A DNA stretch of 64,000 bases from Pedobacter psychrophilus. GTDB taxonomy: Bacteria; Bacteroidota; Bacteroidia; Sphingobacteriales; Sphingobacteriaceae. This document shows, in pieces, positions 13,949 through 24,387 of the stretch (position 1 is its first letter; each line of letters begins with the position of its first letter). The position numbers and the translations under genes are program-made. Under the pieces are notes generated by a model. The model was not told the DNA's origin. It did no database searches and was given only the letters and a program-made list of their open reading frames with translations. The stretch is taken from positions 62,001-126,000 of the forward strand of contig NZ_LWHJ01000027.1 in the NCBI RefSeq assembly GCF_001652725.1, written 5' to 3'.

Positions 13949-15322
13949 ATGGATAATTTGTATGCAATTGTAGATATCGAGACTACCGGAGGTCATGCCA
14001 GTGCCCATGGTATGACAGAGATTGCTATTTTTATCCATAATGGGGAAAATATAATCGAAGAATATCAAACCTTAATCAATCCTTTTCAGGAAATACCCAT
14101 TTTTATACAAAGCCTAACGGGCATTACAAACGAGATGGTGAGTAAAGCGCCATCATTTGAGGAAGTTGCCCCTCGCATATTCGAACTGCTAGATCAAAAG
14201 ATATTTGTTGCCCATAACGTCAATTTCGATTATTCTTTTGTAAACCATCACCTTAAAAAAGAAGGCTATACTTTAGGCAATAAAAAATTATGTACGGTAA
14301 GGTTGGCCCGAAAAATATTTCCTGGTTTACCCTCATACAGTTTAGGTAAATTGAGCAGGAGTTTAAATGTTCCTATCCAAAACCGACACCGGGCTGCGGG
14401 CGATGCATTTGCAACAGCTACCATTTTTAAAATGATGGTGCAAGCAGATGAAAACGGATATATCCAGGAAGCTTTAAAGGCAAAGGCGAAAGAAGAAGCT
14501 TTGCCACCATTTATCTCTAGAAGCCAGATAGAAAATATCCCAAGACAACCCGGAGTGTATTATTTTAAGGATAAAAAGGATAAAATTATCTATGTGGGGA
14601 AAGCTAAAAACCTATATCGAAGGATTTTAAGCCATTTTTCTAACAATAGTCCGCATAGAAATAAACAAGATTTTTTAAGAGAGATCCGGAAGATTTCTCA
14701 TCAGGTTTGTGGTACCGAGTTACAGGCCATGATTTTGGAGAACATCGAAATTAAACGCCTGTGGCCAGCAAATAATAGTGCCGCAAAGAAACCAGAAAGG
14801 AGGCATTGCCTTTATCTTTATGAAGACCAAAAAGGATTTTTAAGGTTTGGCGTAGGTAAAAAGATCAAGAATTTAAAACCTACTTATTTATTTAATTCCC
14901 TGGCCGAATCTCAATCGCTGTTACGCAAATGGTGTGAAGAATACGGACTTTGCCCTAAAATGTGCAACCTGCAAAAGACCACCGAAGATTGCATCGCATT
15001 ATTGGCAGGTAATTGTATCTGTGCACAAAAGGATAATGTAGCAGATTATAACCAAAAAGTAAATACCTTAATAGGACATTTAATGCAAGGTTTACCTTCG
15101 TTTTTAATTATAGATAACGGCAGAAACCGATTAGAAAAAAGCTGTATCCTAATGGAAAAAGGCATTTTCTACGGAATGGGTTACTTACCAGAGCATCAAT
15201 TACCAGATAATTTAGAAAAAGCTAAATCTCTGTTGCAACCTTATCCATCCTACCAGTTTATAGAAAAGCTGATATTTGATTTTGCATTACAAAATCCGCA
15301 TCAACAAGTAATACTCAATTAA
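13949..15322 (+). CDS. DnaQ-like 3'-5' exonuclease fused to a GIY-YIG (UvrC/Cho-like) nuclease
   Basis: A 457-residue two-nuclease protein. Residues 1-165 are a DEDDh exonuclease: Asp9/Glu11 in VDIETTGG, Asp94 in HNVNFDYSF, His147 and Asp152 in HRAAGDA. Residues about 195-275 are a GIY-YIG domain: GVYYF at 202-206, YVGKAKN at 215-221, then Arg224/Arg225. The C-terminal 180 residues have a Cys-rich stretch (CPKMCNLQ, CIALLAGNCIC) that may bind metal. This architecture occurs in Bacteroidota and Actinobacteria and is thought to act in DNA repair, like E. coli Cho joined to an ε-type exonuclease; the precise role here is inferred. It is divergent from the FKBP gene. Confidence 0.88.
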   Translation: MDNLYAIVDIETTGGHASAHGMTEIAIFIHNGENIIEEYQTLINPFQEIPIFIQSLTGITNEMVSKAPSFEEVAPRIFELLDQKIFVAHNVNFDYSFVNHHLKKEGYTLGNKKLCTVRLARKIFPGLPSYSLGKLSRSLNVPIQNRHRAAGDAFATATIFKMMVQADENGYIQEALKAKAKEEALPPFISRSQIENIPRQPGVYYFKDKKDKIIYVGKAKNLYRRILSHFSNNSPHRNKQDFLREIRKISHQVCGTELQAMILENIEIKRLWPANNSAAKKPERRHCLYLYEDQKGFLRFGVGKKIKNLKPTYLFNSLAESQSLLRKWCEEYGLCPKMCNLQKTTEDCIALLAGNCICAQKDNVADYNQKVNTLIGHLMQGLPSFLIIDNGRNRLEKSCILMEKGIFYGMGYLPEHQLPDNLEKAKSLLQPYPSYQFIEKLIFDFALQNPHQQVILN

Positions 15323-16425: not shown

Positions 16426-18021
16426 ATGGCCAAACAAAAAGTTGAAACAGAAGAACCACTAGAGAAAAAACTCTGGAAAGCAGCCGACAAGCTCCGTAAA
16501 AATATGGATGCTGCCGAGTACAAACATGTTGCTTTGGGTTTGATATTCCTGAAATATATATCAGACGCTTTTGAAGAACAATACCAAAAATTAGTTGCTC
16601 AAAAAAGCGAAGGTGCAGACCCCGAAGACAAAAACGAATACTTGGCAGACAAAATATTTTTCGTTCCTGTTATGGCTCGCTGGACTTACATACAAGGCAG
16701 AGCAACACAACCGACCATTGGGAAAGACATTGACGATGCAATGGACGCTATTGAAAAAGACAACCCTTCTTTGCGTGGTGTTTTACCAAAAGTATTTGCA
16801 CAAGAAAAACTTGACAAAGCCAGTTTAGGCGGACTGGTAAACCTTGTTGGCTCTGCAACTTTGGGAACAAAAGAAGCACAAAGCAAAGATTTACTTGGTC
16901 AAGTATTTGAATTTTTCTTGGGCGAATTTGCATTGGCAGAAGGAAAAAAAGGCGGACAGTTTTACACACCGCAAAGCGTTGTGAAATTGTTGGTTGAAAT
17001 GCTTGAACCTTATGAAGGACGAGTTTTTGACCCTTGTTGTGGTAGTGGAGGAATGTTTGTGCAAAGCGAAAAATTCATCAAATCTCATCAAGACAATTAC
17101 AAGAAAAAAGGGAAAGTTGGGTTAGCATTAAATCCTGCCGACCGCATTTCCATTTATGGACAAGAGAGCAACCAAACGACTTGGCGTTTGGCAAAAATGA
17201 ATTTATCCATTCGTGGCATTGATAGCAGTAATGTAAAATGGAACAATGAAGGTTCCTTTTTGAACGATGCACACAAAGATTTAAAAGCCGATTATATTAT
17301 TGCCAACCCACCGTTTAATGATAGCGACTGGAGTGGTGAACTATTACGTGATGATGCAAGATGGAAAGTGTTGGGCGAAAAATTAACACCTCCAACTGGA
17401 AACGCAAACTATGCTTGGATACAACATTTCTTGTATCATTTAGCACCAACAGGGCAAGCAGGGTTTGTTTTATCTAAAGGTGCATTAACAACCCACACAA
17501 CTGGCGAAGGTGACATAAGAAAAGCCTTGGTTGAAAAAGGATTGGTGGATTGTATTGTAAACCTGCCGACCAAATTATTTCTAAATACACAAATACCAGC
17601 TTGTTTATGGTTTTTATCGCGGAACAAAATCAATGGTGGTTTTAGAAAACGTGAAAACGAAATCTTGTTTATTGATGCCAGAAATATGGGCTTTTTAATA
17701 AACCGCAAAAACCGTGATTTAAGCGAAGGTGATATAAATTTAATAACAAGCACTTACCACAACTGGCGTAACCCAGATGGAGATTATGAAGATGTAGCTG
17801 GTTTTTGCAAAGTGGCAACTATTGAAGAAGTGGCAAAACTAAATTATGTGCTAACTCCGGGTAGATATGTTGGACTGGCAGATGAAGACGATTATTTTGA
17901 TTTTGTTGAACGCTTTACTTCATTGAAAACAGAACTGGAAAAACAAATTGCCGAAGAGGCAGATTTGAATAAGAAGATTACTGAAAATTTATCAAAAATA
18001 AAACTACCTGTAAATGGCTGA
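16426..18021 (+). CDS. hsdM: Type I restriction-modification DNA methyltransferase subunit (M)
   Basis: A 531-residue HsdM, full length. The N-terminal helical HsdM_N domain starts at about residue 10 (LEKKLWKAADKLRKNMDAAE). The N6-adenine methylase domain has the TPQSVVKLLVEML segment, motif I DPCCGSGGMF near residues 201-210 (SAM binding) and motif IV NPPF near 293-296 (catalysis). With HsdS it methylates adenine in the bipartite target; with HsdR added it forms the restriction complex. It is the first gene of a tight six-gene operon and overlaps the next ORF by 8 nt. By eye, base and codon use (more GAC, AAC, GGC) differ from the flanking housekeeping genes, consistent with acquisition by transfer. 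Confidence 0.95.
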   Translation: MAKQKVETEEPLEKKLWKAADKLRKNMDAAEYKHVALGLIFLKYISDAFEEQYQKLVAQKSEGADPEDKNEYLADKIFFVPVMARWTYIQGRATQPTIGKDIDDAMDAIEKDNPSLRGVLPKVFAQEKLDKASLGGLVNLVGSATLGTKEAQSKDLLGQVFEFFLGEFALAEGKKGGQFYTPQSVVKLLVEMLEPYEGRVFDPCCGSGGMFVQSEKFIKSHQDNYKKKGKVGLALNPADRISIYGQESNQTTWRLAKMNLSIRGIDSSNVKWNNEGSFLNDAHKDLKADYIIANPPFNDSDWSGELLRDDARWKVLGEKLTPPTGNANYAWIQHFLYHLAPTGQAGFVLSKGALTTHTTGEGDIRKALVEKGLVDCIVNLPTKLFLNTQIPACLWFLSRNKINGGFRKRENEILFIDARNMGFLINRKNRDLSEGDINLITSTYHNWRNPDGDYEDVAGFCKVATIEEVAKLNYVLTPGRYVGLADEDDYFDFVERFTSLKTELEKQIAEEADLNKKITENLSKIKLPVNG

Positions 18022-18274
18022 GATAATTAGAAACAGAACTATAAGACCATCAACTAGGCAAGAAACATCAGTGAATTATAGAGTTCACCTTGATGGGATT
18101 TCTTCATTTGACACTTTGATTGTCAATATTAAACACGAAAGCAAACCATTTGCAAAATCCTTTACGTTTAAAGGAACCGAAGTTTTGAAAAAGAAAAGCC
18201 TTGGATTCAGGGTTTTCGATGATGGTAAACAAATAATTATTAATTGGACAAGCACACAACCAACCAATGGCTAA
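18014..18274 (+). CDS. Unrecognised 86-residue protein within the restriction operon
   Basis: I do not recognise this protein. It is 86 residues, basic, without signal peptide, membrane helix or Cys, and with β-rich patterning (YRVHLDGISSFDTLIVNIKH, then SLGFRVFDDGKQIIINW). It overlaps hsdM by 8 nt at its start and the HEPN gene by 8 nt at its end. Such double overlap argues that it is a real, translationally coupled gene. Antisense or off-frame reading of a neighbour cannot explain it, because most of its length does not overlap any other gene. A role as a small accessory or anti-restriction-control factor is possible but only a guess. Confidence 0.7.
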   Translation: MAEIIRNRTIRPSTRQETSVNYRVHLDGISSFDTLIVNIKHESKPFAKSFTFKGTEVLKKKSLGFRVFDDGKQIIINWTSTQPTNG

Positions 18275-18722
18275 CGAAGATATACGCTGGATACAGCGGT
18301 TTAATAATTACCGAAAAGCCTTAGCAAGACTTGGCGAAGCTGTGGCTTTGGCAGAAGAAAGAGACTTATCAGACTTGGAACAACAAGGCTTGATACAAGG
18401 TTTTGAATTTACTTTTGATTTGGCATGGAAAACCTTGCAAGATTATTTGCGACACCACAACCGCCCCAATGACAATGGTGGTCCAAATGTAATTATTACA
18501 CAGGCTCTAGAAGATGGCATTATTAAAGGTGAAGAAGCGTGGAAAGCAATGAAGAAATCCCGTGATTTAACTTCACACAGTTACGATGGTGAAACAGCAG
18601 ACGACATTGCCGAAAATATTTTAGATACTTACCACGATTTGTTCATTCAGTTAGAAACTCGTTTACAATTAGAAAAAATAAACGAAGAGAAAAACCTTTT
18701 TAACCCAAACGACACCGAATGA
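18267..18722 (+). CDS. HEPN-domain protein, HepT/HI0074-like (nucleotidyltransferase substrate-binding family)
   Basis: A 151-residue all-α protein of the HI0074/HepT family; GFEFTFDLAWKTLQDYL is the family core. It has the full HEPN toxin motif R-x4-H-x-Y: Arg99, His104 and Tyr106 in KSRDLTSHSYDG. In the studied HepT-MntA pairs this motif is the RNase active site, and the MNT partner modifies the Tyr with AMP to silence the toxin. Here the next gene begins with an MNT domain (4-nt overlap, ATGA), so the pair is complete. What is odd is the place: inside a type I restriction operon, between hsdM and hsdS. The role as a toxin or abortive-infection effector in this context is inferred. Confidence 0.88.
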   Translation: MANEDIRWIQRFNNYRKALARLGEAVALAEERDLSDLEQQGLIQGFEFTFDLAWKTLQDYLRHHNRPNDNGGPNVIITQALEDGIIKGEEAWKAMKKSRDLTSHSYDGETADDIAENILDTYHDLFIQLETRLQLEKINEEKNLFNPNDTE

Positions 18723-20179
18723 AATTTGGATTGGAGCAACATATTATTGATAAACTTATAGCCGTTTTTGAGCAACACTCAAAAGTGGATAAAGCCCTTG
18801 TTTTTGGTAGCAGAGCCAAAGGCAATTACCGACCTGATAGCGATATTGATATTGCCATAAAAGGTCAAGAACTAACCACCGATGATATTATTGCGATGAG
18901 TGTGGCATTTGAAGAAAATGGCATTACCCATAAAATTGATTTGATAAACTACCACAGCATAAAAGAACCTGATTTAAAAGACCATATTGACCGTGTGGGG
19001 ATTGAGTTGTATAGTAAGTGGAAGGAATGTAAATTGGGTGATGTAACAAAACTTATTACCAAAGGGACAACACCATCCTCATTAGGAGGAAAATTCATTA
19101 ATAAGGGAATCAATTATATAAAGTCTGAAGCCGTAAGCTATGATGGTAAAATTGATAAATCAACTTTTGTTTTTATTGATGAGGCAGTGCATCAAAAATT
19201 AAAACGTTCTCAATTAGCAAAAGACGACATTCTGTATTCAATGGCAGGGATTTATCTTGGCAAGAATGGTTTGGTTACAGAAGATATGCTTCCTGCAAAT
19301 ACAAATCAGGCATTAGCAATTATTCGATTAAATCAAGAAAAAGCTAAACCTAAATTTATTCATTACTATTTAAGACAAAAAAGTGTTATTGATTTTGTAA
19401 ATAATATGTCTGGGCAATCGGCACAGCCTAACATCAATTTTGAAGAAATCAAATCGATTGATATTCTCTTACCACCCTTACAAGAACAAACCGCAATTGC
19501 CACCATCCTTAGCAGTTTAGATGATAAAATAGACCTGCTACACCGCCAAAACAAAACATTAGAGCAATTGGCTGAAACGCTTTTTAGGCAGTGGTTTGTG
19601 GAAGAAGCGGAGGAGAGTTGGGAAGAGAAAAGTTTACCCGAAATTACAGATTATTTGAATGGTTTAGCTTTGCAAAAATTTCCTGCTAAAATTGATTATC
19701 TACCCGTAATCAAAATTAGAGAAATGAAACAAGGCATTTCTGAAAATTCAGATAAATGCAGCAGAGATATTCCATTGCAATATATTGTTCAAGATGGTGA
19801 TGTTTTGTTTTCTTGGAGTGGAAGCTTAGAAGTTGTGTTTTGGACAGGTGGAGAAGGTGCATTAAATCAGCATTTATTTAAAGTTTCGTCAAAAAAATAT
19901 CCAAAATGGTTTTATTATTTGGCAACTAAGCATCATTTGCCCGAATTTAAAGTTATTGCAGAATCTAAGTCAACAACTATGGGACATATTCAAAGAGTGC
20001 ATTTGCAACAAGCAATGATTTCAATTCCTCCAAAAGAATTATTTGACCAATACAATGAAAGAATTACCCCGATGATTGATAAATTGATTGATAATCATAA
20101 ACAAATCCGCACCTTAACCCAAATAAGAAATACTTTGTTGCCAAAGTTGATGAATGGTGAGGTAAGGGTAGATTTATAA
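18719..20179 (+). CDS. hsdS: MNT nucleotidyltransferase domain fused to type I restriction specificity subunit (S)
   Basis: A 486-residue fusion in one uninterrupted frame. Residues about 1-98 are a minimal nucleotidyltransferase: Gly30-Ser31 with Asp42/Asp44 (FGSRAKGNYRPDSDIDIAI) and a third acidic Asp74 (HKIDLI), so the catalytic set is intact. From Trp101 (WKECKLGDV) it is a normal HsdS. TRD1 runs to about residue 250, and the first conserved helix is LPPLQEQTAIATILSSLDDK with a coiled coil to LFRQWF. TRD2 begins at WEEKSLPEI, and the second repeat ends RNTLLPKLMNGEVRV. HsdS sets the DNA target of the M and R subunits; MNT domains of this class AMPylate HEPN toxins. The upstream HEPN gene overlaps by 4 nt. 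A fusion of antitoxin to specificity subunit is unusual. Confidence 0.92.
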   Translation: MKFGLEQHIIDKLIAVFEQHSKVDKALVFGSRAKGNYRPDSDIDIAIKGQELTTDDIIAMSVAFEENGITHKIDLINYHSIKEPDLKDHIDRVGIELYSKWKECKLGDVTKLITKGTTPSSLGGKFINKGINYIKSEAVSYDGKIDKSTFVFIDEAVHQKLKRSQLAKDDILYSMAGIYLGKNGLVTEDMLPANTNQALAIIRLNQEKAKPKFIHYYLRQKSVIDFVNNMSGQSAQPNINFEEIKSIDILLPPLQEQTAIATILSSLDDKIDLLHRQNKTLEQLAETLFRQWFVEEAEESWEEKSLPEITDYLNGLALQKFPAKIDYLPVIKIREMKQGISENSDKCSRDIPLQYIVQDGDVLFSWSGSLEVVFWTGGEGALNQHLFKVSSKKYPKWFYYLATKHHLPEFKVIAESKSTTMGHIQRVHLQQAMISIPPKELFDQYNERITPMIDKLIDNHKQIRTLTQIRNTLLPKLMNGEVRVDL

Positions 20180-20182
20180 ATT

Positions 20183-21163
20183 ATGTCAAAAAGGCAACGA
20201 AAATTGTATTCAATCAAAGAAGAACTCTTGACCAAATCAAGGGAAGCAATGCTTTGTGCCGTCCAAATTTTTAATAATCCCAATATTGCCTTTAAATCCG
20301 AAAGTTTTATCGTTTTAGCAAATATTTCTTGGACATACTTTTTACACGCTTATTATAAGGATAAGAGAATTGATTATAGATATTATAAGCAAGGTCCAAA
20401 AATCAAGAAGTATGATAAAACTTCGAGAGGTGCTTTTAAATTTTGGGAATTAGAAAGGTGTTTAAACGATGATAATTGTCCAATTGAAAGTGTTCCTAAA
20501 GCTAATCTTAAATTTCTAATTGGGCTTAGACACGAAATAGAACATCAAATGACAACAAGAATTGATGATTATCTCAGCGCAAGATTTCAGGCCTGTTGCC
20601 TCAATTACAATCACTATGTAAAAAGTTTGTTTGGCGTAAACTATGGTATTGATAAATATTTATCGTTTTCTTTACAATTTTCTTCAATATCGGAGGAACA
20701 CGGAAAACAACTAAATGAGTTTACAGATTTGCCTAAAAGTATTGCCTCTTACATTAATGATTTTGATGATAGTGTCTCCGATGCTGATTACAACAATCCA
20801 CAATACTCATATCGTGTTTTGTATGTCCCAAAAACAGCCAATACCAAAGGGCAAGCAGATAAAGTAATAGAGTTTATAAAAGCAGATTCACCCGAAGCTG
20901 CTGGTTTAAATAAAGAATATAGAATTATTAGAGATAGAGAAAAACCAAAACATCTGCCAGCAGAAATCATTAAAATAATGAAAGGTAAGGGGTACAAAAA
21001 ATTTGGGATGTACCAACATACTCAACTTTGGAAAGCTCTTGATGCAAAAAATGAGGGCAAGAGTTTTGGAGTATTAGTAGCAAATTTCTGGTACTGGTAT
21101 GATAGCTGGTTAAAAGAAGTTGAAAAATATTGTGTTGAAAATAAAGACGAGCTTTGTAAATGA
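20183..21163 (+). CDS. DUF3644-like protein with a HEPN-type R-x4-H motif, in the restriction operon
   Basis: A 326-residue protein. Its N-terminal helical region (about residues 15-58: LLTKSREAMLCAVQIFNNP, then FIVLANISWTYFLHAYY) matches what I know of DUF3644. At Arg116-His121 (LRHEIEHQ) it shows R-x4-H in the middle of a helix-rich stretch, as in HEPN ribonucleases. The C-terminal part (about 235-320) includes KYRGYKKF-like basic patches and PKHLPAEIIKIMKGKG, resembling a small winged or HTH-like DNA-binding segment. It sits between hsdS (3-nt gap) and hsdR (4-nt overlap), so it is co-translated with them. Function unknown. Family name is from memory and moderately certain; the HEPN relationship is inference. 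Confidence 0.65.
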   Translation: MSKRQRKLYSIKEELLTKSREAMLCAVQIFNNPNIAFKSESFIVLANISWTYFLHAYYKDKRIDYRYYKQGPKIKKYDKTSRGAFKFWELERCLNDDNCPIESVPKANLKFLIGLRHEIEHQMTTRIDDYLSARFQACCLNYNHYVKSLFGVNYGIDKYLSFSLQFSSISEEHGKQLNEFTDLPKSIASYINDFDDSVSDADYNNPQYSYRVLYVPKTANTKGQADKVIEFIKADSPEAAGLNKEYRIIRDREKPKHLPAEIIKIMKGKGYKKFGMYQHTQLWKALDAKNEGKSFGVLVANFWYWYDSWLKEVEKYCVENKDELCK

Positions 21164-24100
21164 AACCAATCACAGAAGATAAAATAGAAACCTTTGCATT
21201 AGAAGTGCTTCAATCTATGGGTTGGGAGTATGTTCACGGCTTGTCTATTGCTCCGGGTGCAGAAGCAACGGAAAGAGAAAGTTTTGAGCAAATTGTTTTA
21301 GTTGACCGTTTACGTAAATCGGTTTCAGTTTTAAATCCGAACATTCCACAAGATGCACAAGAACAAGCTATTCAAAAAGTTTTGCGGATTTATTCGCCTG
21401 AATTATTGCACAACAACGAAACTTTTCATCAACTATTAGTAGAAAAAGTAAAAATACCTTATCAACAAGATGGCTTTGAACGTAGCTATGAAGTGGCATT
21501 GGTAGATTTCGAAAATCCGTTTAACAATACATTTTTAGTTGTCAATCAATATATTATTGTTGAGAAAAATCAGAACAAACGCCCAGATGTTTTACTTTTT
21601 GTAAACGGTTTGCCATTAGTAGTTATTGAATTAAAAAATGCGGCAGACGAAAACGCCACAATGCGAAAAGCGTTTGACCAATTGCAAACTTACAAATCAA
21701 CTATTCCAAGTTTGTTTACATATAATGCCATTTGCGTAATATCAGACGGAATGGAATGTAAAGCAGGAAGTGTTTCGGCAGGGTTCAGTCGTTTTATGAC
21801 TTGGAAAACAGCAGACGGAAAAAAAGAAGCATCACGATTTATTCCACAATTAGAAATATTGCTTAAAGGAATGTTGAACCCTTCTACCCTTTTAGATTTG
21901 GTTCGTAATTTCATAGTATTTGAAAAGAGTAAGAAGGAAGATGCAAAAACAGGAATTACACAAATAGAAACCGTAAAAAAATTAGCAGCTTATCATCAAT
22001 ATTACGCTGTAAACAAAGCGGTGCAATCTTCTATAATTGCATCAGGAGCAAACGGAGACAAAAAAGGTGGTGTGGTTTGGCATACACAAGGTTCGGGTAA
22101 AAGTTTAAGTATGGTTTTTTATTCTGGCAAACTGATTACAGCGCCCGAAATGCAAAACCCAACCATTTTAGTAATTACAGACCGTAATGATTTGGACGAC
22201 CAATTATTTGACACGTTTGCAAACTCAAAACAATTACTAAGACAAGAACCTGTTCAAGCCAAAGACAGAGCGCATTTAAAAGAATTACTAAAAGTGGCAA
22301 GCGGTGGAATTGTGTTTGCCACCATTCAAAAGTTCCTGCCCGAAGACCAAAAATCTGTTTACGAGCAACTTTCGGAACGAAAAAACATTGTAGTAATAGC
22401 GGACGAAGCCCACAGAACACAATATGGTTTTGAAGCATCCATCAAAGAAGTAAAAGACAAAGAAACAAAAGAAAAAATTGGAGAACGTATTGCGTATGGC
22501 TTTGCCAAATATATGCGGGATGCTTTGCCAAACGCCACATACATAGGCTTTACAGGCACACCGATTGAAGGCACAGATGTAAATACTCCGCAAGTTTTCG
22601 GACAGTATGTAGACGTTTATGATATTTTACAAGCCGTAAACGATGGTGCAACGGTTCGTATATATTACGAAAGTCGTTTGGCAAAAGTGAATTTAGATGA
22701 AGAGGGTAAACGCCTTATTGAAGAATTTGACAAAGAACTTGAAGAAGACGAAGAAATAACCGACCAACAAAAAGCCAAAGCCAAATACACAAAATTGGAG
22801 GCAATTGTAGGTAATGAAGAACGGATAAAGAATTTAGCCAAAGACATTGTAACCCATTCTGAAGAACGCCAAAAAGTATTTGATGGCAAAGGAATGATTG
22901 TAGCAATGAGCCGAAGAATTGCAGCCGATTTATATAAAGAAATTATTGCATTAAGATCCGAATGGCACAATGAAGATTTAAGTAAAGGAGCGATTAAAGT
23001 TGTTATGACTTCAACGAGTGCTGACGGTCCAGAGATGCAACGCCACAACACAACAAAACAACAGCGTAAAAATTTAGCAGAACGGATGAAAGACCCTGCC
23101 GACCCTTTGCGTTTGGTTATTGTTCGTGATATGTGGTTAACTGGTTTTGATGCTCCTTGTTTACATACTCTCTACATTGACAAACCAATGAGAGGACACA
23201 ACCTTATGCAAGCAATAGCAAGGGTAAACCGTGTTTTCAAAGATAAACCAGGCGGTTTGATAGTTGACTATTTAGGAATAGCAACAGACTTAAAAAAAGC
23301 ATTGTCTTTTTATTCAGATGCAGGAGGAAAAGGCGAACCAACTTTGGATTTAGAAAAAGCAATTGCCTTGATGAATGAAAAGTTTGAAGTAGTTCAGCAG
23401 TTTTTTAATGAAGAAGCAAGAACACAAAATGATATAGTTGCCGAAGAACCTGAAGCGTATTATGCGAATAGTTTCAAATTTAATTATAGACGTTTTTTCA
23501 ATGTAGAAGCAAAAGAAAAAATGTCAATCATTCTGCAATCAGAAGAACATATTTTAGGTTTAGAAGATGGTAAAACTCGTTTCATTAGAGAAGTAACATT
23601 GTTAAGCCAAGCCTTTGCGTTATCAATTCCACACGAAAGAGCAATGGAAATCAAAGACGACATTGCATTTTTTCAGGCAGTAAAAGCAAGACTTGTAAAA
23701 TTTGAAGGAACAGGAACAGGCAAATCTGATATTGAAATAGAAACCGCAATCAAACAAATAGTTGACAAAGCATTAAGTAGCGACAAAGTGATGGATATTT
23801 TTGAAGCAGCTGGTATGGAAAAACCAGACATTTCAATTTTATCTGATGAATTTCTTTTAGAAGTAAAAGGAATGAAGCATCAAAATTTAGCTTTAGAACT
23901 TTTGAAGAAATTATTGAATGATGAAATAAAAACACGTTCTAAAACTAATTTAGTAAAGAGCAAAAAACTTTTAGAAATGTTGGAAGGTGCAATAAAACGC
24001 TACCAAAATAACTTACTTACAACAGCCGAAATTATTCAAGAACTCATCAACATTGCAAGAGAAATTAAAGAAACCGATAAAGAAGGTGAGCGACTTGGAT

Positions 24101-24387
24101 TGACAAAAGACGAAGTTGCATTTTACAATGCTTTAGAAGTAAACGATAGTGCAGTAATGGTTTTGGGTGACGACCAACTCAAAGAAATTGCAAGAGAAAT
24201 TACAGACAAAGTAAGAGCAAACGCAACTATAGACTGGACAATCAGAGAAAGTGCAAGAGCAAGACTAATGGTAATTGTTAAGCGAACCTTGACAAAATGG
24301 GGTTATCCGCCAGACAAACAAGCAAAAGCAATTGAGACAGTTTTAAAACAAGCAGAATTAATGGCAGACTTCTTTACAACAGAATAA
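21160..24387 (+). CDS. hsdR: Type I restriction endonuclease subunit (R)
   Basis: A 1075-residue HsdR, full length. The N-terminal PD-(D/E)XK nuclease has the catalytic Asp in RPDVLLFVNG (near residue 141) and VVIELKNA (near 156). The SF2 translocase follows: Walker A HTQGSGKSLSM (about 308-318), DEAH box VIADEAHRTQYG (about 412-423), motif III GFTGTPI, and motif VI within QAIARVNRVFKDKPGG. A C-terminal helical domain that docks on HsdM follows (about 760-1075). It translocates DNA in both directions and cuts at a distance from an unmethylated target. No frameshift is seen, so the locus looks functional. It is the last gene of the operon; no clear hairpin terminator follows. Confidence 0.96.
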   Translation: MKPITEDKIETFALEVLQSMGWEYVHGLSIAPGAEATERESFEQIVLVDRLRKSVSVLNPNIPQDAQEQAIQKVLRIYSPELLHNNETFHQLLVEKVKIPYQQDGFERSYEVALVDFENPFNNTFLVVNQYIIVEKNQNKRPDVLLFVNGLPLVVIELKNAADENATMRKAFDQLQTYKSTIPSLFTYNAICVISDGMECKAGSVSAGFSRFMTWKTADGKKEASRFIPQLEILLKGMLNPSTLLDLVRNFIVFEKSKKEDAKTGITQIETVKKLAAYHQYYAVNKAVQSSIIASGANGDKKGGVVWHTQGSGKSLSMVFYSGKLITAPEMQNPTILVITDRNDLDDQLFDTFANSKQLLRQEPVQAKDRAHLKELLKVASGGIVFATIQKFLPEDQKSVYEQLSERKNIVVIADEAHRTQYGFEASIKEVKDKETKEKIGERIAYGFAKYMRDALPNATYIGFTGTPIEGTDVNTPQVFGQYVDVYDILQAVNDGATVRIYYESRLAKVNLDEEGKRLIEEFDKELEEDEEITDQQKAKAKYTKLEAIVGNEERIKNLAKDIVTHSEERQKVFDGKGMIVAMSRRIAADLYKEIIALRSEWHNEDLSKGAIKVVMTSTSADGPEMQRHNTTKQQRKNLAERMKDPADPLRLVIVRDMWLTGFDAPCLHTLYIDKPMRGHNLMQAIARVNRVFKDKPGGLIVDYLGIATDLKKALSFYSDAGGKGEPTLDLEKAIALMNEKFEVVQQFFNEEARTQNDIVAEEPEAYYANSFKFNYRRFFNVEAKEKMSIILQSEEHILGLEDGKTRFIREVTLLSQAFALSIPHERAMEIKDDIAFFQAVKARLVKFEGTGTGKSDIEIETAIKQIVDKALSSDKVMDIFEAAGMEKPDISILSDEFLLEVKGMKHQNLALELLKKLLNDEIKTRSKTNLVKSKKLLEMLEGAIKRYQNNLLTTAEIIQELINIAREIKETDKEGERLGLTKDEVAFYNALEVNDSAVMVLGDDQLKEIAREITDKVRANATIDWTIRESARARLMVIVKRTLTKWGYPPDKQAKAIETVLKQAELMADFFTTE

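Follow-up and report, generated by a model that had tools for sequence, protein, structure and literature searches.

The window, the 64,000-nucleotide stretch of Pedobacter psychrophilus DNA analysed here, contains a six-gene type I operon in the order hsdM, x86, HEPN, MNT::hsdS, DUF3644 and hsdR. Along this order, the first three junctions are overlaps of 8, 8 and 4 nt, the fourth is a gap of 3 nt and the last is an overlap of 4 nt. The features of the operon are as follows.

16426..18021, + strand: hsdM, type I methyltransferase subunit, 531 aa, NPPF at 294 (Pfam N6_Mtase 2.4e-105, HsdM_N).
18014..18274, + strand: x86, 86-aa protein of no known family, with 8-nt overlaps with hsdM and HEPN.
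18267..18722, + strand: HEPN, 151 aa, HI0074/PF08780 family, candidate RNase toxin (Pfam, NCBIfam, PDB).
18561..18584, + strand: HEPN motif RX4HXY (R99, H104, Y106; sequence motif).
18719..18722, + strand: ATGA overlap of the HEPN stop and the MNT::hsdS start (sequence).
18719..19018, + strand: MNT domain, residues 1-100 (Pfam Polbeta/NTP_transf_2; PDB 8xeh MNT).
18806..18850, + strand: GSX10DXD motif of the MNT (G30, S31, D42, D44; sequence motif).
19019..20179, + strand: HsdS domain with two TRDs, from Trp101 (Methylase_S; PADLOC Specificity_I 99-485).
20183..21163, + strand: DUF3644 protein, PADLOC candidate PDC-S19, 326 aa (PF12358 2.1e-60; PDC-S19 4.7e-165).
21160..24387, + strand: hsdR, type I restriction subunit, 1075 aa (HSDR_N, SWI2_SNF2, T1RH-like_C).

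The MNT and HsdS domains are encoded at 18719-20179 by a single 486-codon frame without interruption, whose frame, start and stop are all as the sequence-only reading had described them. Pfam analysis of the fusion identified Polbeta at residues 12-100 (E 8e-18), NTP_transf_2 at residues 10-88 (1.2e-9) and Methylase_S in two stretches, the better one at residues 99-283 (3.2e-32), and PADLOC HsdS models, among the best 25 of 147 models, spanned residues 99-485. The same reading had proposed an intact MNT (Gly30-Ser31, Asp42/Asp44, Asp74) followed by a complete two-TRD HsdS from about Trp101, and both parts were confirmed, by the GSX10DXD motif with D74 as the third acid and by the Methylase_S and PADLOC specificity matches from residue 99. 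No linker separates the two domains, as MNT homology stops at residue 100 and HsdS begins at residue 101. The unfused HsdS of another locus (L092), which is 66% identical to the window protein over residues 99-486 in its best segment, starts with MSEW at the place where the fusion reads YSK-W.

The closest solved homologues of the window HEPN and MNT are those of the Legionella pair (8xdj/8xeh). The fused MNT matched 8xeh, the Legionella MNT, at 1.9e-18 over residues 3-100, and the HEPN protein matched 8xdj, the Legionella HEPN toxin, at 9.8e-32, in addition to PF08780 (8.9e-36) and TIGR01987 (79.8 bits; cut-off 55.8). The sequence-only reading, which had spoken of the MntA group, is corrected on one point: the score of this MNT against the MntA equivalog NF047752 (NCBIfam) was 44.8 bits, below the cut-off of 60, and it is not filed as MntA. 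Two elements of a type VII system, an MNT with GSX10DXD and an adjacent HEPN with RX4HXY, are present in the window.

The elements of a type I system, HsdM, a two-TRD HsdS and HsdR, likewise stand in one operon with intact motifs. HsdM has NPPF and HsdR has the nuclease-like D..ELK, GSGKS and DEAH motifs, and the restriction-modification function of the operon therefore looks complete as judged from these motifs. The x86 protein had no match in Pfam, PADLOC or NCBIfam; a homologue occupies the same slot in G403 (L235), and the x86 HMM also matched within longer ORFs of L100 and L136. The DUF3644 protein, encoded between hsdS and hsdR, carries an Rx4H motif (RHEIEH at 116), and a table in PMC3710099, among the parts available, lists a HEPN family overlapping DUF3644; it is a possible second HEPN-like effector of the same operon. 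Upstream of the hsd operon, at 13949-15322, an RNase_T exonuclease is joined to a GIY-YIG domain. Elsewhere in the window's genome there is a second HEPN-MNT pair (G000:C31:89970-90260, L002), which is free and whose MNT has 34% identity.

Genome scans identified 32 distinct MNT::HsdS fusions including that of the window, that is, 31 further genomes or loci, and one MNT::HsdR fusion. Seven phyla are represented among the named hosts, of which many are metagenome assemblies: Bacteroidota, Spirochaetota, Thermodesulfobacteriota, Myxococcota, Pseudomonadota, Bacillota and Bdellovibrionota. With the MNT alone as the query, the family scan of 201 genomes found three frames longer than 400 aa, all of which were fusions (the window's own genome, G055 and G085). 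The order scan (400 genomes) added G403, the phylum scan (395 genomes) G430 and G545, and a scan round another centre (297 genomes) G953. Scans of 274, 198 and 219 genomes added G1303, G1110 and G1287, then G1503, then G1758, while G1245 in the first of these was L135 again. These scans overlap in part; with the centre genome left out, each MNT-query scan contained one to four fusions, or 0.3 to 1.5% of its genomes. When the whole fusion was used as the query against genome contigs, a fusion was present in 20 of the best 80 loci, and all 24 members of alignment A4 matched Methylase_S, Polbeta and NTP_transf_2. In L120, L159, L221, L265 and L276, the fusion is truncated by, or extends up to, the end of a contig or locus. 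Long open frames in G1113 and G524 were rejected as fusions because they run through stops.

Among the findings that the sequence-only reading had named as speaking against it were a frameshift and the absence of the fusion from close relatives. An assembly or sequencing frameshift as the origin of the fusion was refuted by the same junction in separately sequenced genomes; no sign of one was seen and nothing was found in its favour, so that its probability is close to nil. Nor is the fusion absent from relatives: L140 carries it, with an MNT 86% identical to that of the window, yet none of the 17 other genomes listed for the window's own genus does, and the distribution is therefore patchy. 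Among phages, two records matched the MNT query and no fusion was seen. Among plasmids, 87 records matched the MNT, none of the 40 listed carried an HsdS name under the match, and the eight listed matches of 542 to the full-length query all began at residue 94 or later. Viral contigs gave no locus for clade B and six loci for clade A, with MNT::HsdS in none of the six.

The choice of fusion partner was narrow. Among 171 distinct MNT cores in the loci examined, a tail of at least 100 aa was present in 32, comprising 31 HsdS and one HsdR and no other partner, and one fusion found later, in the 219-genome scan, was also to HsdS. Frames of 175-230 aa at five further places in the scans had tails of 2 to 45 aa. 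Because part of the set of 171 cores was retrieved with the fusion as the query, it is biased towards HsdS; scans that used the MNT alone are free of this bias and gave the same partner choice. In the single MNT::HsdR case (L229/G1283), a HEPN gene with RX4HXY overlaps by 8 nt a gene for a 1064-aa protein, in which an N-terminal MNT is followed by HSDR_N, SWI2_SNF2 and EcoR124_C; it lies on a 4.5 kb contig (L229 1-4516) with neither hsdM nor hsdS in view. No further MNT::HsdR was found in 3 genomes of the order or 219 of the phylum, with G1283 in both sets. As a separate observation, a distant MNT-like domain in L292 (G065) stands in one frame behind what by eye resembles a helix-turn-helix domain.

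The residues expected for activity were conserved on both sides of the pair. The G, the S and the three catalytic Asp were kept in all 30 aligned fused MNTs (29 with HsdS, one with HsdR), and 26 of 27 full-length HEPNs retained RX4HXY, the exception being L230 with Asp for the catalytic His. Values of dN/dS were 0.09 for MNT and 0.03 for HEPN between the window and L140, a comparison close to saturation at synonymous sites. Between L096 and L099 the MNT value was 0.05, and between L123 and L124, with few changes, the values were 0.17 for MNT and 0.11 for HEPN. Over 21 loci, MNT distances correlated with HEPN distances (r 0.91; 0.86 with HsdM removed) and hardly with TRD1 distances (r 0.17, p 0.009; 0.08, p 0.12 with HsdM removed), p values that are lenient because near-identical rows were unmerged. 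These 21 of 30 loci exclude L099, L130 and L147 for their broken HEPN and L114, L131, L221, L229, L230 and L231 for divergence or context. The MNT therefore evolves with HEPN, and target recognition is exchanged beside it. Taken as a whole, the MNT::HsdS fusion is real and recurrent, goes beyond a chance arrangement given its recurrence and low dN/dS, and is conserved as if functional.

A neutral origin, in which the stop codon of a separate MNT gene ahead of hsdS was lost and the cell tolerated the resulting protein, was considered in view of the junctions. In L075, L135, L147 and L231, an ATG close to where HsdS once started still precedes the HsdS Trp by three or four codons, and in L223 the MNT and hsdS frames are separate and overlapping, all of which would fit such read-through. 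On the other hand, the twelve Bacteroidota fusions that include the window form a clade (support 98/97) whose members have kept the linkerless junction in common though their TRDs differ, and the low dN/dS and the exclusive partner choice also argue against tolerance of an accident. Neutral read-through is thus regarded as very unlikely.

In the MNT tree of 73 rows, the fused or free label requires five changes, although the starred branches alone force at most one. Ten of 83 rows had been left out of this tree (three far MNTs, the fusions L114 and L131, and five long branches), and it predates the finding of L221, L230, L231, L232, L265 and L276. A single origin was weakly rejected, with an AU p of 0.031 for the 23 fused rows as one clade (98 columns; the group was named after the tree had been seen), and joining the two largest fusion clades was not rejected (p 0.54). 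The MNTs of L114 and L131 come from a subgroup very unlike the rest, and junctions are linkerless in the window's clade and have longer linkers elsewhere. The fusion thus probably arose at least twice, and likely more often.

With respect to operon order and INTERMEDIATES, a full-length HEPN gene was located directly upstream of MNT::hsdS in 26 of 31 fusions. In 25 of these 26 it stands behind hsdM, and in L221 an hsdM-like fragment precedes it instead; L276, found after the 31, has HEPN upstream as well. In the five other fusions, an intact HEPN is not in view. Remnants of HEPN lie beside MNT::HsdS in L099, where the middle is missing in frame, in L130, where the N-terminal part is missing, and in L147, where an N-terminal stub remains. 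No HEPN is in view in L159, which starts at a contig start, or upstream in L265, where the preceding gene resembles ruvC by eye and the fusion ends with the contig. In L221 (G1287, 900-2600), a HEPN and the first ~53 residues of an MNT run into an hsdM-like end, after which a second HEPN and an MNT::HsdS of another subgroup follow, an arrangement that looks like the scar of a cassette replacement.

The three loci in which HEPN is broken and the MNT retained raise the possibility of a domesticated regulator, in which HEPN and MNT would have ceased to be a toxin-antitoxin pair and the MNT, with HEPN binding its substrate, would nucleotidylate HsdS, HsdM, HsdR or another target and so tune restriction. 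The joining of MNT to HsdS and, once, to HsdR is in keeping with this idea, as is the initial proposal of HEPN as the substrate-binding subunit of MNTs in the available text of PMC3710099. A broken HEPN beside an intact MNT::HsdS is, however, weak evidence alone, because the MNT rides in the hsdS frame, and it equally resembles toxin inactivation. Moreover, the near-universal RX4HXY of the HEPNs aligned here differs from HEPN domains fused to MNTs, which according to the same text typically have no RNase residues (PMC3710099). A regulatory role of this kind is accordingly considered unlikely. In L283 and L280, HEPN and MNT share one open frame; the HEPN part of L283, which adjoins an HsdS, is without RX4HXY.

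HEPN/MNT pairs were also found unfused beside hsd genes at ten loci (L153, L176, L210, L211, L216, L223, L246, L256, L277 and L281). The view that hsd-linked MNTs are always fused was rejected on this basis, and linkage therefore does not require fusion; the unfused pairs within hsd operons look like intermediates. For most other HEPN/MNT pairs, no hsd gene was in view; these are 155 entries with duplicates retained, for the most part with flanks of 1.5 kb. In the operon of L092, which has the unfused HsdS, the hsdM-hsdS slot holds DUF1016/YhcG nuclease frames, and therefore HEPN-MNT is accessory cargo of an ordinary type I system. DUF1016/YhcG nuclease genes also occupy the hsdM-hsdS slot of L147, where others have HEPN-MNT. 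Between hsdS and hsdR of L092 (6070-7050), in the slot held by DUF3644 in the window, lies a gene for a RelA_SpoT-domain protein, and this second slot seems to accept various effectors.

These arrangements bear on another alternative, a plain toxin-antitoxin pair in which MNT::HsdS silences HEPN like a free MNT and the fusion couples expression only. It would provide equal amounts of antitoxin and HsdS and make loss of hsd costly, with restriction status and phage inhibitors being irrelevant. The intact MNT and HEPN motifs, the ATGA coupling and the unfused linked pairs in hsd operons are all compatible with this explanation, and so is the use of the hsdM-hsdS slot as a general cargo site, where the hsdM-hsdS distance in loci without MNT ranged from 8 to 2872 bases (52 values). 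Yet gene overlap by itself would suffice to couple expression, and the fusion recurs and is confined, in the loci examined, to HsdS and HsdR. In addition, 8 of 29 fusions have no ATG, GTG or TTG within 12 codons before the presumed HsdS-start Trp (the Trp chosen for L221 and L230 is perhaps not the HsdS one), and free HsdS would be hard to make there. Expression coupling as the whole explanation is therefore rated as rather doubtful.

Studies of relatives indicate what the pair in the window may do. In these relatives, HEPN is an RNase toxin silenced by MNT through NMPylation of the RX4HXY Tyr (PMC7641770, PMC11586414, in the parts available), and we infer by analogy that the window HEPN would be a toxic RNase and the window MNT its NMPylating partner. 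The Legionella pair resembles that of the window in RX4HXY, in GSX10DXD and in an MNT without C-terminal helix alpha4, the last being judged for the window from its residues only. It differs in that the Legionella MNT is a separate protein (108-aa chain), whereas that of the window forms one polypeptide with HsdS, encoded within a type I operon. According to the available text of PMC11586414, the MNT of Legionella pneumophila, in which helix alpha4 is absent, contacts HEPN via alpha2 and the alpha2-beta3 loop, so that the C-terminus of an MNT of this type is probably free and would here be the attachment point of HsdS. In Legionella, R73 of HEPN is the key residue for binding the MNT. In the window HEPN, unlike that of Legionella, this position is Asn, and the contact with the MNT may therefore differ; Lys or Arg is present in 20 of the 27 HEPNs aligned, and 7 of the 27, the window included, are non-basic.

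HepT/MntA of Shewanella shares the motifs and the gene pairing with the window, and AMPylation of the RX4HXY Tyr is established in that system, as far as the accessible portion of PMC7641770 reports. HepT, however, belongs to PF01934, whereas the window HEPN belongs to PF08780/HI0074, and MNTs of the HepT/MntA kind hold HEPN with alpha4 (as the available text of PMC11586414 puts it), whereas the window MNT, judged by its sequence, has no alpha4. PrrC/EcoprrI has the gene of a HEPN-class RNase inside a type I hsd operon, where the window likewise has HEPN; PrrC is silenced by the type I enzyme until the phage peptide Stp sets it free (PMC3874165, PMC3710099, both in available excerpts). The HEPN domain of PrrC is joined to its own ABC ATPase; in contrast, the window HEPN is small, its candidate silencing enzyme is covalent with HsdS, and Pfam found no ABC domain in the six operon proteins. 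PARIS (AriA/AriB) mounts an abortive response to an anti-restriction protein, as is proposed here, but consists of AAA+ ATPase and DUF4435 proteins and does not require a type I enzyme, according to the parts of PMC9122126 available. Neither the AAA ATPase AriA nor the DUF4435 AriB was found by Pfam among the six operon proteins.

That HEPN toxins of R-M operons behave like PrrC was predicted in general terms in PMC3506569 (2012) and PMC3710099 (2013); the available text of these papers describes no fusion of an MNT with a specificity or restriction subunit. The text of PMC3710099, as available, contains no word beginning with HsdS, and TRD occurs there as RM_TRD, an abbreviation in a figure legend; a drawing of the fusion is still conceivable. 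In searches of open-licence PubMed Central papers, the listings and passages that came up contained no description of MNT joined to HsdS or HsdR. MNT::HsdS unites two known kinds of system, and links between HEPN and R-M have been in print since 2012-2013.

The recurrence of the fusion in distant bacteria suggests, short of proof, that the candidate toxin guards the restriction system. The reading that we prefer, to which we give roughly even chances, is a type VII-like toxin-antitoxin in which the restriction complex would contain the antitoxin and which would act as a PrrC-like guard of the restriction enzyme. It is favoured by the recurrence and narrow partner choice of the fusions, the intact motifs, the low dN/dS, the co-variation of MNT with HEPN, the probably free MNT C-terminus, the broken HEPNs beside MNT::HsdS and the precedents of PrrC and PARIS. 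Against it stand the Asn at R73, the altered His of L230, the lack of HEPN upstream in L265, the ten unfused pairs and the fact that MNT::HsdR is a single case. In a healthy cell, the MNT domain would be held within the HsdM/HsdS complex, where it would nucleotidylate HEPN at Tyr106, bind HEPN, or both, and so keep the HEPN RNase silent. If the complex were lost or unassembled, or if a phage anti-restriction protein or unusual DNA occupancy tied it up, freshly synthesised HEPN would go unsilenced, RNA would be cut and the infected cell would be stopped. Both the assembly of the MNT into the restriction complex and the trigger are steps that we infer, and the trigger is the weak link of the proposal. 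AMP on pre-made toxin would outlast the complex, and release would therefore need new toxin, loss of binding or a removing enzyme. In partial support of the sequence-only reading, which had proposed that toxin silencing would be coupled to the restriction complex, the MNT and HEPN motifs are intact, HEPN mostly lies directly upstream, the two proteins co-vary and remnants of HEPN stand beside intact MNT::HsdS; the scope of that reading is narrowed by the fusions that have no intact HEPN.

The covalent tie between an MNT and a restriction enzyme points to a possible trigger for HEPN/MNT systems. More broadly, it is a tentative proposal, somewhat short of even in probability, that each functional type I complex of this kind would itself be the antitoxin, with the MNT in its specificity or restriction subunit, that inactivation of the complex by phage inhibitors or DNA occupancy would mean lost silencing of the toxin, and that this design evolved more than once. 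If this is true, the fusions would represent a second solution to the anti-restriction sensing of PrrC, mechanistically different from it and probably of more than one origin.
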